Shown here in pieces: positions 14,886-21,467 of a stretch of 64,000 bases of DNA. The stretch comes from Cystobacter fuscus. GTDB taxonomy: Bacteria; Myxococcota; Myxococcia; Myxococcales; Myxococcaceae. Under the pieces are notes generated by a model that did not search any database, was not told the origin of the DNA, and was given only the letters and a program-made list of their open reading frames with translations. The stretch is from contig NZ_CP022098.1 in the NCBI RefSeq assembly GCF_002305875.1, forward strand, positions 7,936,001-8,000,000. Direction: 5' to 3'. Each line of letters starts with the position of its first letter. Positions within the stretch are counted from its first letter, which is position 1. The position numbers and the translations under genes are program-made.

Positions 14886-14950
14886 TACTCATGAGTACTA
14901 ATCTGTAAAACGTGCATAGCTTGACATGGCGGTATTTATTTCAATACCTT
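14886..14950 (+). promoter_or_regulatory. Palindrome plus putative promoter of the ACP operon
   Basis: TACTCATGAGTA (14886-14897) is a perfect 12-bp palindrome in an AT-rich pocket. Downstream, TTGACA (14921-14926) is a perfect -35 box, followed after 18 bases by a weak -10, TACCTT (14945-14950). Transcription would begin close to the ATG at 14959, giving an almost leaderless mRNA. The palindrome is a plausible operator 23 bases upstream of the -35 box. Confidence 0.35.
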
Positions 14951-14958
14951 TTCCATCC

Positions 14959-15216
14959 ATGATCCAGCCGGATATCGAAGACGCCATCAAGAAGATCGTG
15001 CGGAGCACGCTCAATCTGCCCGAAGGCGAAATCGAGTCGTCCACCAACCTCCGGGATCTGCCTGGAGTCGAGTCGATCAAGATCCTCCGCATCGTCGCCA
15101 GCCTGGAGAAGAAGTTCGACGTCCGGCTGGATGATCAGGTCGTGTTCCGGGTGAGCACCATCGAGGAGCTGGCGGGCGCGGTGTCGAAGCTGGTCGAGGA
15201 GCGGCAAGCGCCGTGA
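14959..15216 (+). CDS. Acyl carrier protein
   Basis: An 85-residue acyl carrier protein. It has the four-helix ACP pattern, with the phosphopantetheine serine at Ser39 in the sequence LPGVESIKILRIVASLEKKF. The common DSL triplet is ESI here, so the carrier is divergent from the housekeeping AcpP but should be modifiable. ATG 14959 begins the family-like MIQPDIEDAIKKIV; an upstream ATG at 14926 would add 11 residues that look non-coding and overlap the -35 box. It is the first gene of a four-gene operon (ACP, methyltransferase, desaturase, FAAL) and is probably the carrier on which the others act. Confidence 0.87.
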   Translation: MIQPDIEDAIKKIVRSTLNLPEGEIESSTNLRDLPGVESIKILRIVASLEKKFDVRLDDQVVFRVSTIEELAGAVSKLVEERQAP

Positions 15217-16088
15217 ACACCACCGGCCAGGAGGAGACGCCTCGGGCGGGGGAAGGTTGGTCTCACGGGGTCACCAACACGCACTACGATCAGGATCCAC
15301 GTCTCTTCCAGCTCTTCCTGGATCCCTCGATGAAATACAGCCCGGGCTTGTTCCCGGAGGGCAACGAGGATCTCGAGACGGCGCAGCACAAGAAGATGCA
15401 CTTCATCGCCCGGCAGCTCGGACTCCAGGGCGGAGAGCGCGTGCTCGACGTGGGGTGTGGCTGGGGCAGTCTCGTCTGCTTCCTGGCGCGGGAGTATGGC
15501 TGCGAGGTGGTGGGCGTGACGCCCGCTCCGCGCCAGGCCGACTACATCCGCACACGCGCGGCGCGGCTCGGCATCGCCGGGAAGGTGCGGATCGAGGTCG
15601 GCCACTTCCATGAGGTCTCGCTTCCCAAGGGCGCCTTCCAGGGCATGAGCTTCGTCGGCTCCATCACCCACTTCCATGACAAGCCGGGGACGCTCGTCAA
15701 GGCCTGGTCACTGCTCAAGCCCACCGGCAACGTCTATCTTTCCGAGACCTGCTTCTGCAACGCGGCGAAACGGCGGGAGTTCGAGTCCCGGCCCGGCACG
15801 AAGTTCGTGCTCCAGGACACCTTCGGCTGGGCGGAGCTGCTCCCCGTCTCGGACTACGTGCGCTACTTCGAGGACGCGGGCTTCTCGCTGCGCGGGCTGG
15901 TGGATCTCACCGCGGAGTACTCCCGGACGATTGAACTGTGGAGCGAGAACGCGCGGCGCAACAGTCAGGCGCTCGACGCCATCGAGCCGAACCTGTCCGA
16001 GCGGCTGCTCAAGTACTTCGAGATCTCGAACGCGGGTTGGGGTTACACCAGCAAGCAATACGCGCTGGTCGCATCGAAGCGCCGCTAG
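15213..16088 (+). CDS. SAM-dependent methyltransferase, cyclopropane-fatty-acid-synthase-like
   Basis: A 291-residue class I methyltransferase of the CFA/mycolic-acid type. The N-terminal YDQDPRLFQLFLDPSMKYSPGLF resembles the CFA-synthase stretch that precedes the fold. The SAM-binding motif is RVLDVGCGWGSLVCFLA near residue 76. The C-terminal half carries the motif FGWAELLPVSDYVRYFEDAGF, as in CFA synthases. It starts at GTG 15213, overlapping the ACP stop by four bases (GTGA). CFA enzymes normally act on double bonds of membrane lipids; here the genetic context suggests an acyl chain on the preceding ACP, with either cyclopropanation or C-methylation. It lacks the long N-terminal domain of E. 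coli Cfa. Confidence 0.85.
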   Translation: MNTTGQEETPRAGEGWSHGVTNTHYDQDPRLFQLFLDPSMKYSPGLFPEGNEDLETAQHKKMHFIARQLGLQGGERVLDVGCGWGSLVCFLAREYGCEVVGVTPAPRQADYIRTRAARLGIAGKVRIEVGHFHEVSLPKGAFQGMSFVGSITHFHDKPGTLVKAWSLLKPTGNVYLSETCFCNAAKRREFESRPGTKFVLQDTFGWAELLPVSDYVRYFEDAGFSLRGLVDLTAEYSRTIELWSENARRNSQALDAIEPNLSERLLKYFEISNAGWGYTSKQYALVASKRR

Positions 16089-16107
16089 TGGCGTCACGGG
16101 GGGGCCT

Positions 16108-16935
16108 ATGCACAAGACGTACATCCAGCCAGAGCGCATGCGCCGGCTCGTCACCGAATACATCGATCGGTGGGAGACGAAGCCCTGGGGAGCGGTGGAC
16201 ATCCCCTGGGAGCAGCTCCAGGCGGACCGCCTCACCGAGGCCCAGGGGTCGGCCATCCGCTTCGTCACCCTCATCGAGGATCACGTCCCGGGCTACATCC
16301 AGGACGTGCTGAAACACTTTCCAGCCGATGACTCGGTCTCTCCCAGCCAGTTCATGCACAACCGGGAGCTCTTCCGGTTCTTCATGCGCTGGGCCCAGGA
16401 GGAGGACCGGCACGCGGATGTCTTTGGCCGCTACCAGGTGCGCGCCGGCATCCAGAGCGAGGAAGCCCTTCACGCCGAGCTGTGCCGGCAGGGCCGCAAG
16501 ACGTGGCACTTCCCTCGCGAGCTTCCCGTCCAGATCTTCACGTACACCGTCATCCAGGAGAAGGCCACCCAGCTCTACTACCAGATGCTGGGCCGGTCGG
16601 TGGAAGAGCCCGTGCTCAAGGTGCTCCTCAACCGGATCCAGAAGGACGAGGCCCGGCACTTCGCCTTCTACGCGAGCATCCTCGAGGCCTACATCGAGGA
16701 GCTGGGACAGGACATCCTCCCGGCGATCCAGGAGGCGCTCCAGTCCTTCAAGATGCCGCTGGCCGAGCAGCTCGACAACTACTGGCGGTGGTCGTTGGAA
16801 GTCAGTGACACGGCGGGCGGCTATGATCACACCGTCGCCTACGCGGAGTTGCTGCGCGTCGTCCAACGGGCCGCGAACGCATCCAGTGGCTCCCAGAAGC
16901 TGGCGGAGTGGGTGCGCGCGGTCCGCGCCACCTAG
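16108..16935 (+). CDS. Acyl-ACP desaturase-like di-iron protein
   Basis: A 275-residue soluble protein of the plant-type (FA_desaturase_2) acyl-ACP desaturase family. Di-iron ligands are visible: the Glu of LIEDHVPGY near residue 54, the pair EEDRH near 95, QEKATQLYY near 151 and KDEARHFAFY near 180, giving the two ExxH motifs expected. Such enzymes abstract hydrogens from ACP-bound acyl chains using O2. It sits 19 bases after the methyltransferase gene and 9 before the FAAL, so it belongs to the same transcript. The ATG at 16108 begins MHKTYIQPERMRRLV. Other ferritin-fold oxygenases (for example AurF-type) are less likely given the ACP next door. Confidence 0.83.
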   Translation: MHKTYIQPERMRRLVTEYIDRWETKPWGAVDIPWEQLQADRLTEAQGSAIRFVTLIEDHVPGYIQDVLKHFPADDSVSPSQFMHNRELFRFFMRWAQEEDRHADVFGRYQVRAGIQSEEALHAELCRQGRKTWHFPRELPVQIFTYTVIQEKATQLYYQMLGRSVEEPVLKVLLNRIQKDEARHFAFYASILEAYIEELGQDILPAIQEALQSFKMPLAEQLDNYWRWSLEVSDTAGGYDHTVAYAELLRVVQRAANASSGSQKLAEWVRAVRAT

Positions 16936-16944
16936 GAGCGGGAC

Positions 16945-18636
16945 ATGACACCCGAGCACATCTCGACGCTGGTGGAGGCGCTGCGGTGGACCCGGAGCGC
17001 GTTTCCCACGCGGGGCTATGCGTATCCCGCGCAACACGCCTTCCTGAGCTACGAGGCGCTGGACACGCGCAGCGAGGTCGTGGCGCGGCGGCTGCGAGCG
17101 CGGGGGCTCGAGCGCGGGCAGCCCGTGGGCCTGCTGCTCAAGACGGGCCCCCAGTTCCTGCTGTCCTTCTTCGGCGTCCAGCGGGCGGGAGGCGTCCCGG
17201 TTCCCCTGGCCCTGACGGGCGGCAGGGATCTCTCGGGCTACTTCGAACACCTCGCGCCCATCCTGAGGGATGGGGACATCCAGTGGTTGTGTGTCGAGAC
17301 GTCGCTGATGGAGCTGCTCGGCGCGGGCCAGCCGCCCGAGGGGTTGCTCCTGTTGTCCAGCGAGGAGCTCGTCGCGGAAGGTGGCGCGGGCGAGGGCCCG
17401 GAGCCCCTCGAGCCGGAGCCGGAGGAGCTGGCGTTCATTCAATACACCTCCGGAAGCACCGCCGCGCCCAAGGGCGTCGCCATCACCCACGCCAATGCCC
17501 TCGCGGGGCTGCGCTCCATCGTGGCGAGTGGAGGGTTCAACTCCGAGGACGTGTTCTGTGGCTGGCTGCCCCACTTCCACGACATGGGACTGGTGGGCAT
17601 CCTGTTGACGAGCCTCTTCAATGGCTGTCAGGCGCATGTCTGGTCGCCCTATTCCTTCATCAAGGATCCCGCCGGCTGGCTGGCCTACTTCTCCAAGGTG
17701 AAGGCCACCATCTACACCGGACCGAACTTCTCCTATGCCTGGCTGTGCGACGGCGTGGAGCCCGGAGAGGTCGCGGCGCTCGACCTGTCCTCGGTGCGCC
17801 TGGCCGTCAACGGCGCGGAGGCCGTGGATGCGCGGCTGATGGAGGCCTTCGCCGACAAGTTCGCCCCCGCCGGACTGCGGCCCGAGGCGCTCTACCCCGT
17901 CTATGGGCTGGCGGAGGCGGTGCTCGCCGCGACCTTCCCCGCGGTGGGCGAGCCGGTGCACGTGGACTGGGTCGATCGCGCGGCCCTGGGCAATGACCGG
18001 GAGGTGCGCCGGGTGGAGCGCTCGACAACGGGGAGCCGGGGCGTGGTGGCCCTGGGGCGACCCGTGGAGGGCCTCCAACTGCGCATCGTGGGAGAGGACG
18101 GAGCGGTCCAGGGCGAGGACCGGGTCGGAGAGATCCAGCTCCTCGGGCCGGCCGTCATGCGGGGCTACTACCGCAACCCGAGTCTCACGGCCGGGATCTT
18201 CCAGGAGGGATGGCTGCGCACGGGAGACCTCGGCTACCAGAAGGACGGCCGCCTCTACGTCGTCGGCAGGGCGAAGGACGTGCTCAAGCAGGCGGGAGAG
18301 AGCTACTACCCCGAGGACATCGAGGCCGTGGTCCGTCCCCTGGAGGGCGTCCACCGGGGAGGCTGCGTCGCCTTCGTGGGAGGGCCCCTGGGCGAGGAGC
18401 GCATCATCTGCCTGGCCGAGACGGGGCTGCGGGAGCCCACCGCGCTCGAGGGCCTGGCCCGGGAGATCGGCAAGGTGGTGCGCCGCAAGGTGGGCCTCGC
18501 GAGCCTCGAGGTGCTGCTCGTGAAGAAGAGCTCCATCGCCCGGACGACGAGCGGCAAGTTGCAGCGCCACGTCATGAAGCGCAGGAGCCAGGAACCAGGG
18601 GATGAGGCGTCCCTGCTGTTCCAGCTCCGCCTCTGA
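16945..18636 (+). CDS. Fatty-acyl-AMP ligase (FAAL)
   Basis: A 563-residue adenylate-forming enzyme. The ATP motif is IQYTSGSTAAPKGVAITHAN near residue 165; GWLPHFHDMGLVGILL, LYPVYGLAEAVLAATFP and RTGDLGYQKDGRLYVVGR follow. The C-terminal lysine loop is RTTSGKLQRHVMKRR. The WLPHFHDMGL and YGLAEA forms and the sequence between them are those of FAALs, which load fatty acids on ACPs as acyl-AMPs, rather than of CoA ligases. It is last in the operon with ACP, methyltransferase and desaturase, and probably charges the ACP. It converges with the hydrolase gene at 18665. Confidence 0.9.
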   Translation: MTPEHISTLVEALRWTRSAFPTRGYAYPAQHAFLSYEALDTRSEVVARRLRARGLERGQPVGLLLKTGPQFLLSFFGVQRAGGVPVPLALTGGRDLSGYFEHLAPILRDGDIQWLCVETSLMELLGAGQPPEGLLLLSSEELVAEGGAGEGPEPLEPEPEELAFIQYTSGSTAAPKGVAITHANALAGLRSIVASGGFNSEDVFCGWLPHFHDMGLVGILLTSLFNGCQAHVWSPYSFIKDPAGWLAYFSKVKATIYTGPNFSYAWLCDGVEPGEVAALDLSSVRLAVNGAEAVDARLMEAFADKFAPAGLRPEALYPVYGLAEAVLAATFPAVGEPVHVDWVDRAALGNDREVRRVERSTTGSRGVVALGRPVEGLQLRIVGEDGAVQGEDRVGEIQLLGPAVMRGYYRNPSLTAGIFQEGWLRTGDLGYQKDGRLYVVGRAKDVLKQAGESYYPEDIEAVVRPLEGVHRGGCVAFVGGPLGEERIICLAETGLREPTALEGLAREIGKVVRRKVGLASLEVLLVKKSSIARTTSGKLQRHVMKRRSQEPGDEASLLFQLRL

Positions 18637-18664
18637 GGCGTGGCCGCCCCCTTCCCCACCGCGC

Positions 18665-19537
18665 TCACTCCCGGGACAGCCACTCCTGGCGGAGGAACCC
18701 GACCAGGGCCCGCGCCAGCTCCTCGGGGTGGTCGAGCGGGACGAAGTGGGTTCCGCCCGGAATGTCCACCCGGGTGGAGCGCGGGAAGCCCGCCTGGAGT
18801 TCGGCCATGCCCTGCTCGCTGGTGACGATGCTGTCCGCCGCGCGGATGAGCAGCGCCGGGATGTCCACGAGCGGCAGGAGCGGACGGAGATCCCCGGGGC
18901 TCCAGGTGGCGTAGGTCTGGGAATCGAACTTGACCGAGAAACCCTCGGGCGTCTGCTTCAGGCCCGTGGCGATGAAGTCCCACAGGGCCGCCTCGGTCAC
19001 GCCCACGCTCGTCTTCTGGATGCCACGGATGAGCTGGCGGATCGCCGTCTCCGCGTCCGCGTGGCTCCGCCGGATGCTGTCGGCCCGCGCATGGAAGAAC
19101 TCCACCTGCCAGGAGGGCACTCGTGGATCGATGTCGACCCAGGCGAGCGCCGAGGGGCGCGGACAGTCCGCCTCCCCGCGCGCGCAGCGTGCCGCGAAGG
19201 CCGTGACGGCCAGAGCGCCCGCCGAGTGCCCGATGACCGCCAGGCGTGACGGTGCGAGGTGGCGCGCGACGCGCTCCAGGTCCGTGGCGTGATCGGCCGG
19301 GTTGTAGGCGGGCGGATGAACAGGCTCGCTGTCACCGTGTCCGCGCATGTCCATGAGCACGGCGCGCACGTCCAGCTCGCGCAGGAGCAGCCGCGCGACC
19401 GGCCGCCACACGCCGCGGTGACTGCTGTTGCCATGAGCGAACAGGAGCGTCGGCGCACCCGGACCCGCCCCCAGCACCTCACAGGCGATGCGAGGGCCCG
19501 GGCCCTCGACGAACAGCGCCTGTTCGCTCGCGCTCAT
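18665..19537 (-). CDS. Alpha/beta hydrolase
   Basis: A 290-residue alpha/beta hydrolase. The HGNSSHRGVWRPVARLL segment near residue 35 is the oxyanion-hole region, DMRGHGDSEPVH follows, and the nucleophile elbow is VIGHSAGALAVTAFA with a serine. The acid and catalytic His are in IRAADSIVTSEQG and GGTHFVPLDHPEEL. Substrate cannot be told. Its start overlaps the stop of the upstream thioesterase by four bases (ATGA), so the two form a coupled pair. They run convergent to the FAAL operon, and a role in releasing or turning over its acyl product is possible but only a guess from position. Confidence 0.85.
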   Translation of the reverse strand: MSASEQALFVEGPGPRIACEVLGAGPGAPTLLFAHGNSSHRGVWRPVARLLLRELDVRAVLMDMRGHGDSEPVHPPAYNPADHATDLERVARHLAPSRLAVIGHSAGALAVTAFAARCARGEADCPRPSALAWVDIDPRVPSWQVEFFHARADSIRRSHADAETAIRQLIRGIQKTSVGVTEAALWDFIATGLKQTPEGFSVKFDSQTYATWSPGDLRPLLPLVDIPALLIRAADSIVTSEQGMAELQAGFPRSTRVDIPGGTHFVPLDHPEELARALVGFLRQEWLSRE

Positions 19538-19968
19538 GGCCGGAACTTCCGTGGCAGCAGGGTGTAGGTGCCCAGGGCGGTCGCCACGTGTCGGCCGCCC
19601 TCGGTCCGCGCATCCATCCGGGCATGGAACAGCTCACTGCCTTTCTTGAGCAGCTCGCCCGTGGTGATCACCCGCTCACGGGCGGCGACCTCCAGGAAGT
19701 TCACCTTGAACTCCGCCGTGACGAGCCAGTTTCCCTCGCTCCGGGTGGCACAGGCGAACCAGCCCACGCTGTCGAGCACGGTGGCGATGAGGCCTCCGTG
19801 GATGCAGCCCGCGCCGTTGTTGTGACGGTCATCCGGCTCGAGCGCGAGCCGCGCCCGCCCCGGTGCCAGCTCCTCGAGGGTCTGCTTCACGAAGCTCAGC
19901 GCGGGCGTGCGATCGAAGAGCCTGCGGAGTGAGGCGAAGTACAACTCGTTGGGTGACTCGGACGTCAT
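19534..19968 (-). CDS. PaaI-like hotdog thioesterase
   Basis: A 144-residue hotdog-fold thioesterase. The family motif is NNGAGCIHGGLIATVLDSVGWFA, split here as HNNGAGCIHGGLIATVLDS near residue 50, the HGG loop that holds the CoA thioester. The frame opens upstream at 20040, but MTSESPNELYF at 19968 is the plausible start, preceded by a GGGGGAGAGCC purine stretch. It is translationally coupled to the downstream hydrolase. The substrate could be an acyl-CoA or acyl-ACP; the neighbouring lipid operon makes an acyl thioester credible, though the pair is on the opposite strand. Confidence 0.84.
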   Translation of the reverse strand: MTSESPNELYFASLRRLFDRTPALSFVKQTLEELAPGRARLALEPDDRHNNGAGCIHGGLIATVLDSVGWFACATRSEGNWLVTAEFKVNFLEVAARERVITTGELLKKGSELFHARMDARTEGGRHVATALGTYTLLPRKFRP

Positions 19969-20105
19969 CGGCTCTCCCCCGGAGGCGAGGAACGTGAAGA
20001 GGACGCTCAGTATAGGTGTTTTTTTCGAGAGGCGTTGCAACCGTGCGTGGCCGCGGGCAGAAGGCGCGCGGCGGTCCTCCCGGGCCGCCGTTCGCTGGAG
20101 GAACG

Positions 20106-21467
20106 ATGTCCCGCACGTGGAGCATGTCCACGCTGTCCTGCGGCACGCTGTCGACGCCGGATGGCACGATCACCGCGTCCAGCGCGTGGCTCGTCGCCGA
20201 GGAGCTGACCCAGCACGACAGGGCCGTGGAGCTGGTGACGCACGAGGCGGGGCACAACCTCTCCCTGGGCCACGCGCGCTCGCGCGACTTCGGCGCCGAG
20301 CCGCTCGGCTACCTGGGCACCCCGGGAACCGTCGTGGAGTACGGGGACGTCTTTTCCACCATGGGCGCGTGGAACCTGGGCCATTACGCGGCGCCGCACA
20401 AGGCACGCATCGGCTGGCTGGACGCGGCCTCGGTGGCGCGGGTGGAGGGCGTGGGGGGCACCTTCACGCTCGCGCCGGTGGTGTCCTCCGGTGGGTTGAA
20501 GGCCCTCAGGCTTCGCCGTGGCTCCACGAGTGGTGGCTGGCTGTGGTTGGAATACCACCAGCCGCTGGGTGCCTATGAGGGGACGCTGGATGCCCAGGCC
20601 TTCGGCGGCGCGCTCGTGCACTACGAGGACGCGGAGACGCGGGAGCGCTCGGACCTGATCGACTTCACGCCGGAGACCGCGTCCTGGAGCGATCCCGTGC
20701 TGCGGCCGGGAAGGACGTGGAACGACCCGTACAGCGACCTCTCCGTGACGGTGGAGTCCGCGACGACCGCGGGGCTCACGGTGAGCGTGCGGTATGAGCG
20801 GAAGCCGTGCGTACGGGCACTTTCCCAGGTGAAGGCGACGCCCTTCTCGGACACGGCGTCACCCGGGGGGCGGCCGGAGTTCGAGCTGGCCCTCACCAAT
20901 CCGGACTCGGCGGGTTGCGGCCCGAGCACCTTCCAGCTCTCGCCCATCATTCCCAGCGGCTGGAGCGCCGATCCCCTGCCCTCGCAAGTCACGGTCGCCG
21001 CATCCAGCACGGCCTATCTGACCCTCCAGACGTATGTGCCCTACCGCATGGAGCTCGGCCTCTACACGGCGGGCGTGGCCGTCACCCGCGACGGCTACAC
21101 GGTGGAGGGCACGAGCACGGTGAGGCTCGTCGAGCGCTGCATCCAGACACCGCCCACGCTCGTGTTGTCTCCGGCGACGCGGACGGCGGCGGCGGGCTCG
21201 ACGGTCACCTGGACGGTGAACGTGACCAACAACGACTCCGCCTCGTGCAATTGGGTCTGGTATGACTTCGTGTCCACCCTGCCCTCGGCGTGGGAGACGA
21301 TCTGGTCCGATTGGGGAGTGAATCTGCCTCCGGGCGGGACCTTCACCTTCACGATGACGAAGACCCTTCCCACGAGCGCGCGGGGGAGCCACACGGTGGA
21401 CCTGCGGCTCCATCAGGATGACTTCGGCCTCGCGGCGAGCACCACGGCCACCGTGGTGGTGGAGTAG
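20106..21467 (+). CDS. M11-like zinc metallopeptidase lacking its N-terminal region
   Basis: A 453-residue protein with the zinc site THEAGHNLSLGH near residue 42 and a Met-turn FSTMGAWNLGHYAAPHKARIGWL, cut here as GAWNLGHYAAPHKARIG. Both match gametolysin-like (M11) peptidases of myxobacteria. Two Ig-like/NEW3-type beta domains follow, with paired cysteines (PCVRAL, AGCGPS, ERCIQT, SCNWVW). Family members normally have a signal peptide and roughly 150-250 residues before the zinc site; here there are about 40 and no signal. A GGAGG five bases before ATG 20106 allows initiation, and a TAG at 20013 closes the frame. It is most likely a 5'-truncated relic, but it may still be translated. Confidence 0.7.
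   Translation: MSRTWSMSTLSCGTLSTPDGTITASSAWLVAEELTQHDRAVELVTHEAGHNLSLGHARSRDFGAEPLGYLGTPGTVVEYGDVFSTMGAWNLGHYAAPHKARIGWLDAASVARVEGVGGTFTLAPVVSSGGLKALRLRRGSTSGGWLWLEYHQPLGAYEGTLDAQAFGGALVHYEDAETRERSDLIDFTPETASWSDPVLRPGRTWNDPYSDLSVTVESATTAGLTVSVRYERKPCVRALSQVKATPFSDTASPGGRPEFELALTNPDSAGCGPSTFQLSPIIPSGWSADPLPSQVTVAASSTAYLTLQTYVPYRMELGLYTAGVAVTRDGYTVEGTSTVRLVERCIQTPPTLVLSPATRTAAAGSTVTWTVNVTNNDSASCNWVWYDFVSTLPSAWETIWSDWGVNLPPGGTFTFTMTKTLPTSARGSHTVDLRLHQDDFGLAASTTATVVVE

Follow-up and report, generated by a model that had tools for sequence, protein, structure and literature searches.

JamABC, which we take to be the fatty acyl-AMP ligase (FAAL), desaturase and acyl carrier protein (ACP) of the terminal-alkyne module, includes a membrane-bound desaturase. 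In modules of this jamaicamide type, the FAAL loads a fatty acid on a dedicated ACP, and the desaturase works on this chain while it is bound to the carrier (PMC11837247). CFA/CMA synthases use a bicarbonate bound by Glu140, His167 and Tyr232 (CmaA1 numbering), residues that ring closure requires (PMC9821293; PMC11387697). Two further systems use a CFA-like methyltransferase, i.e., the furan fatty acid pathway UfaM/UfaD/UfaO of Rhodobacter, which acts on phospholipid acyl chains with neither FAAL nor ACP (PMC7380195), and AmxMT1 of anammox bacteria, which binds ACP and is missing the bicarbonate site (PMC9821293). The imidacin cyclopropane pathway of Stigmatella was set aside as a comparison, as it is polyketide synthase (PKS)-based.

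A four-gene locus in Cystobacter fuscus

Cystobacter fuscus is a predatory soil bacterium. In the window, i.e., the whole 64,000-nucleotide stretch of its genome analysed here, genes for an ACP, a CMAS-family methyltransferase (MT), a soluble diiron acyl-ACP desaturase (DES) and a FAAL are organized in that order on the + strand at 14926-18636, and two convergent genes lie downstream:

14926..15216, + strand: acyl carrier protein, 96 aa (PF00550, PP-binding, 50 bits)
15213..16088, + strand: CMAS-family SAM methyltransferase, 291 aa, GTG start (PF02353, 140 bits)
16108..16935, + strand: soluble diiron acyl-ACP desaturase-like protein, 275 aa (PF03405, FA_desaturase_2, 68 bits)
16945..18636, + strand: fatty acyl-AMP ligase, 563 aa (PF00501, AMP-binding, 208 bits)
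18665..19537, - strand: alpha/beta hydrolase, convergent, directly downstream of the operon (PF00561, 77 bits)
19534..20040, - strand: hotdog (4HBT/PaaI-like) thioesterase, convergent (PF03061)

The ACP and MT genes overlap by 4 nt, and gaps of 19 nt and 9 nt separate MT from DES and DES from FAAL, respectively. These ORF coordinates, together with Pfam matches that exceed the cut-off for all four proteins, bear out the gene order and tight packing described in the first-pass annotation, which was also right that no PKS or NRPS lies beside the operon. An alternative ACP start at 14959 has a better codon-usage score than that at 14926, and the ORF listed for DES from 15676 is over-extended, the DES start being 16108. 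The composition of the four genes is not foreign (GC3 0.86-0.91), and neither a sigma-70-like promoter nor a terminator was found on the + strand.

Among the 195 Myxococcota genomes searched, the four genes occur together in the same order only in this genome and its congeners G091 and G092, i.e., in three of the four genomes of the genus; in the fourth, G093, none of DES, MT and ACP passes the thresholds applied. Across all four genes, dN/dS values of 0.11-0.27 in pairwise comparisons (dS 0.08-0.17) show that they are under purifying selection, and, with the G091 and G092 orthologues collinear and 93-98% identical to the window proteins, argue that the operon is not a product of chance.

The ACP bears the carrier motif GVESIKIL, in which the modifiable Ser is kept and follows a Glu where Asp would be usual, identically in all three orthologues. 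All six diiron ligands are present in DES (E57, E99, H102, E151, E181 and H184, in the pattern E, ExxH, E, ExxH), and the best solved relatives of its profile are DesA2 and plant acyl-ACP desaturases; with the PF03405 match, these features substantiate the earlier assignment of a soluble plant-type desaturase. The AlphaFold model of DES, computed from a two-sequence alignment, has a pLDDT of 48. The ligase was likewise correctly called a FAAL, as it contains the FAAL-specific insertion, which aligns with 3kxw and which two acyl-CoA ligases encoded in this genome do not have. In addition, its C-terminal TSGK lysine is present and its best PDB matches are FAALs; against the NCBIfam fatty acyl-AMP ligase model NF006624 it scores 360 bits, below the curated cut-off.

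By these assignments, the window operon resembles the Jam terminal-alkyne module in predicted ACP loading by a FAAL and in a desaturase expected to act on the ACP-bound chain. It differs in that DES belongs to the soluble, ferritin-like diiron proteins (PF03405) rather than being a membrane-bound desaturase/acetylenase of the Jam type, in that an MT is present, and in that no PKS/NRPS follows; nothing in the operon gives evidence of an alkyne.

Active site of the methyltransferase

The description of the MT as "CFA-type" in the first-pass annotation holds for fold and family (PF02353) but not for the catalytic site, where two of the three bicarbonate ligands are replaced. The SAM-binding GxGxG motif is intact, with G72, G74 and G76 kept, and, as in CmaA1, there is no N-terminal lipid-binding domain. 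In comparison with CmaA1, the window MT shares the PF02353 fold and Tyr232, yet carries the substitutions C35P, E140T, H167S and I169C; at positions 140, 167 and 232, the window MT and both orthologues have Thr, Ser and Tyr. The AlphaFold model of the MT, computed from a single sequence, has a pLDDT of 39; the quality of this model and of that of DES is too low for the pocket to be read.

In a FastTree phylogeny, the window MTs, an MT of Streptomyces clavuligerus and the MTs of myxobacterial ACP-MT-FAAL operons form one clade with a local support of 0.999. Throughout this FAAL-linked clade, His and Ile are replaced by Ser and Cys, while position 140 is occupied by Thr in the window MTs, Glu in S. 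clavuligerus and Val in the ACP-MT-FAAL MTs. The clade is not uniform, since the S. clavuligerus MT has lost only His and Ile and retains Cys35 and Glu140. Because the ligands are replaced in the window MT and Ser/Cys are found clade-wide, the MT reaction, judging from sequence, likely proceeds without a bicarbonate site, and cyclopropanation by the window MT is unlikely. In our incomplete literature search, no published MmaA3 active-site data were found.

The cyclopropane fatty acid suggested by the first-pass annotation would require that DES introduce a cis double bond into the ACP-bound chain and that the MT, despite its altered site, add a methylene across this bond. CMAS is the best-matching family, and the best solved relatives of the MT are CFA synthases (26-29% identity to solved members), even when the clade profile is used; the operon does include a desaturase, Tyr232 is kept, and the S. 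clavuligerus relative preserves two of the residues lost here. However, all four substitutions are found in each of the three Cystobacter orthologues, the Glu and His ligands are reported to be essential for ring closure (PMC9821293; PMC11387697), and a CMAS-type protein (locus L068; Glu kept, His changed to Gln) is encoded elsewhere, which would make a second cyclopropane synthase for the membrane superfluous. With only Tyr232 left of the residues compared, a cyclopropane product is unsupported, and we regard it as rather improbable. CMAS-type proteins of loci L068 and L029 (this genome; genus g7) both have Gln for His167 and keep Glu140.

The clade profile also gives good matches to O- and N-methyltransferases, as would be expected if the product were a methoxy fatty acid. 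In that case, the chain would be hydroxylated by the diiron protein, or carry a hydroxyl group before the FAAL activates it, and the MT would O-methylate this group. Methylation of a heteroatom would be consistent with loss of the carbocation-quenching base, and the desaturase-free ACP-MT-FAAL operons need a methyl acceptor other than a double bond made by a linked DES. Yet the diiron protein falls among acyl-ACP desaturases rather than hydroxylases, and there is no independent sign of a hydroxyl, such that a methoxy acid appears unlikely, although we place it ahead of the cyclopropane. The order of preference favoured here is a methyl-branched alkene, then a methoxy acid, then a cyclopropane.

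Among described enzymes, AmxMT1 is comparable in being a CFA-like MT without an intact bicarbonate site, and the window MT is ACP-linked by gene context. AmxMT1 differs in its FASII-cluster context and its proposed beta-keto alpha-C-methylation, and is only a distant profile match to the window MT.

Related operons in Streptomyces and Myxococcota

Protein searches of plasmids revealed a FAAL-MT-DES operon on a megaplasmid of Streptomyces clavuligerus (locus L123), in which FAAL (17327-19015), MT (19012-19926) and DES (19923-20807) each overlap their neighbour by 4 nt and no ACP gene adjoins. Its proteins are 38% (FAAL), 43% (MT) and 42% (DES) identical to those of the window; for MT and DES, no myxobacterial homologue from outside the genus comes as close (34% and 28%, respectively). 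This recurrence across phyla is, at the level of sequence, the strongest evidence that the gene set would be a functional unit. Joint conservation in relatives, set as a check by the first-pass annotation, is therefore seen both in the order kept in three Cystobacter genomes and in the S. clavuligerus operon. No published description of the latter was found in the literature searched, which was incomplete. A flavin amine-oxidase-like gene lies directly upstream of the S. clavuligerus operon (15815-17080). Plasmid MT matches from Deinococcus and Mycolicibacterium were rejected as relatives of the system, as their C, E, H, I and Y residues are the canonical ones and neither a FAAL nor a desaturase lies in the vicinity. 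For DES, the sole match in a search of genome contigs is a Ca. Lindowbacteria protein (39%) encoded beside alaS; an ACP-like and a ketosynthase-like ORF are situated about 4-5 kb from it.

The six next-best MTs of the phylum (G098, G099, G100, G101, G112 and G138; about 30-34% identity to the window MT) are all encoded in desaturase-free operons of three genes, ACP-MT-FAAL, a gene content confirmed by Pfam for G098. The MT was thus not simply "added" to a ligase/desaturase/ACP trio, as previously proposed, and, because MTs of the same clade lack a linked desaturase, desaturation need not precede methylation. In all five loci with enough flank read, an acyltransferase gene is located within about 6 kb of the ACP-MT-FAAL operon (PlsC-type by Pfam in L082 and L128; recognised by a similar N-terminal sequence in the other three), which points, indirectly, to a lipid fate of the product. 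At locus L092, a terpene synthase gene (Pfam) adjoins the FAAL of an ACP-MT-FAAL operon, and at L127 the gene beside the FAAL of such an operon looks homologous to it.

A trio of FAAL, ACP and soluble desaturase is not special to the window locus, as a FAAL adjoins 11 of the 13 desaturase sites found in the phylum. The combination of ligase, carrier and soluble desaturase is a recurrent and largely undescribed kit in Myxococcota, within which the window DES forms a separate lineage. The clusters at L078, L084, L085 and L088 have the same three activities side by side as the window operon, yet their desaturases are 44-55% alike and, as at the other myxobacterial trio loci, only 24-28% identical to the window DES; some of these clusters run on into a PKS that ends in an aminotransferase domain, and into a CMAS MT keeping Asp/Glu at position 140. 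L078 (G000:C1:9900000-9916000), a second FAAL-ACP-soluble desaturase locus of the same genome, also encodes an AMP-binding/PlsC fusion, an alpha/beta hydrolase and an acyl-CoA oxidase, and its FAAL and desaturase recur at about 90-98% identity in G063, G066, G091 and G092. L084, L088 and L085 are FAAL-ACP-desaturase-PKS clusters, possibly making sphingoid-like or amino-ketone lipids; in L084, the PKS has the domains KS, AT, KR and DH and, at its C terminus, an aminotransferase domain of class I/II, and a CMAS MT and a PPTase come after it. G108 and G146 share a FAAL-ACP-DES-PKS-CMAS MT arrangement, and a PPTase gene was also noted in G108, whereas G138 and G115 have a FAAL-ACP-thioesterase-desaturase-like arrangement. 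At loci L080 and L081, the operon order is FAAL-ACP-hotdog thioesterase-desaturase-like, and few ACPs and FAALs of the phylum are closer to those of the window.

Such arrangements raise the question of whether the window operon supplies, in trans, a starter unit to a PKS/NRPS elsewhere in the genome. FAAL/ACP pairs usually prime PKS/NRPS (PMC11837247), many long adenylation-domain ORFs exist in this genome, and homologous FAAL-ACP-DES modules directly precede a PKS in G108, G146 and G016. However, neither the three orthologous operons, nor the S. clavuligerus operon, nor the six operons of the ACP-MT-FAAL type have an adjoining PKS/NRPS; L082 and L083 depart from this in part, as a large NRPS-like ORF lies at a distance of 2-5 kb. 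We consider a starter-unit role the least probable of the alternatives.

Proposed route and convergent neighbours

The reading that we prefer, at a probability of roughly 0.5, is that the locus encodes a self-contained, PKS/NRPS-independent cassette for tailoring an acyl chain on ACP, likely yielding a non-cyclopropane product that is methylated and either unsaturated or oxygenated. In this cassette, the FAAL would activate a free fatty acid with ATP and load it onto the dedicated ACP; soluble DES would then oxidise the ACP-bound chain, most likely introducing a cis double bond; and the CMAS-like MT would subsequently methylate the chain without using the bicarbonate base of cyclopropane synthases. 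A methyl-branched unsaturated acyl chain is what we would expect, a methoxy acid being a less likely outcome and a cyclopropane disfavoured, and the modified chain may leave through an acyltransferase into lipid or through a thioesterase, not via a neighbouring PKS/NRPS. The earlier logic of "load, desaturate, methylate" is plausible in this light; that four proteins act in series on one ACP, in this order, as well as the product and its fate, is what we infer from the gene set. By its described activities, UfaM/UfaD/UfaO is similar in pairing a CFA-like MT with a desaturase to give a methylated unsaturated fatty acid (PMC7380195), but it works on phospholipid chains without FAAL or ACP, both of which are present in the window operon.

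More broadly, and only tentatively, at odds clearly short of even, the FAAL-linked CMAS-like clade of myxobacteria and Streptomyces, with Ser/Cys for His/Ile, might carry out bicarbonate-independent methylation of ACP-bound fatty acids. The enzyme families are known, and their combination and the MT active site were not found described; no published account of the window operon emerged from the literature searched, which was incomplete. If the reading of the clade is true, methyl-branched or methoxy lipids would be made by a route that is so far undescribed and does not depend on a PKS. The clade itself is a natural test of how the reaction of the CFA/CMA fold changes upon loss of the bicarbonate base. 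The compact four-gene system should be reconstitutable in vitro, and S. clavuligerus, an industrial strain with a related operon, puts the product within reach in a second host.

Of the two convergent neighbours, the alpha/beta hydrolase gene is present in two of the three otherwise collinear orthologous loci and missing in G091. Its candidacy as a component of the system is weakened by this absence, and, because one of three loci lacks it, it is probably not an obligatory part of the operon. For the CxxCxxCC neighbour, synteny in other genera revealed no conserved empty site. The hotdog thioesterase gene (19534-20040) is kept in all three orthologous loci and its product is a possible candidate for the release enzyme; a 4HBT protein is also found within the FAAL-ACP-desaturase operon of G138.
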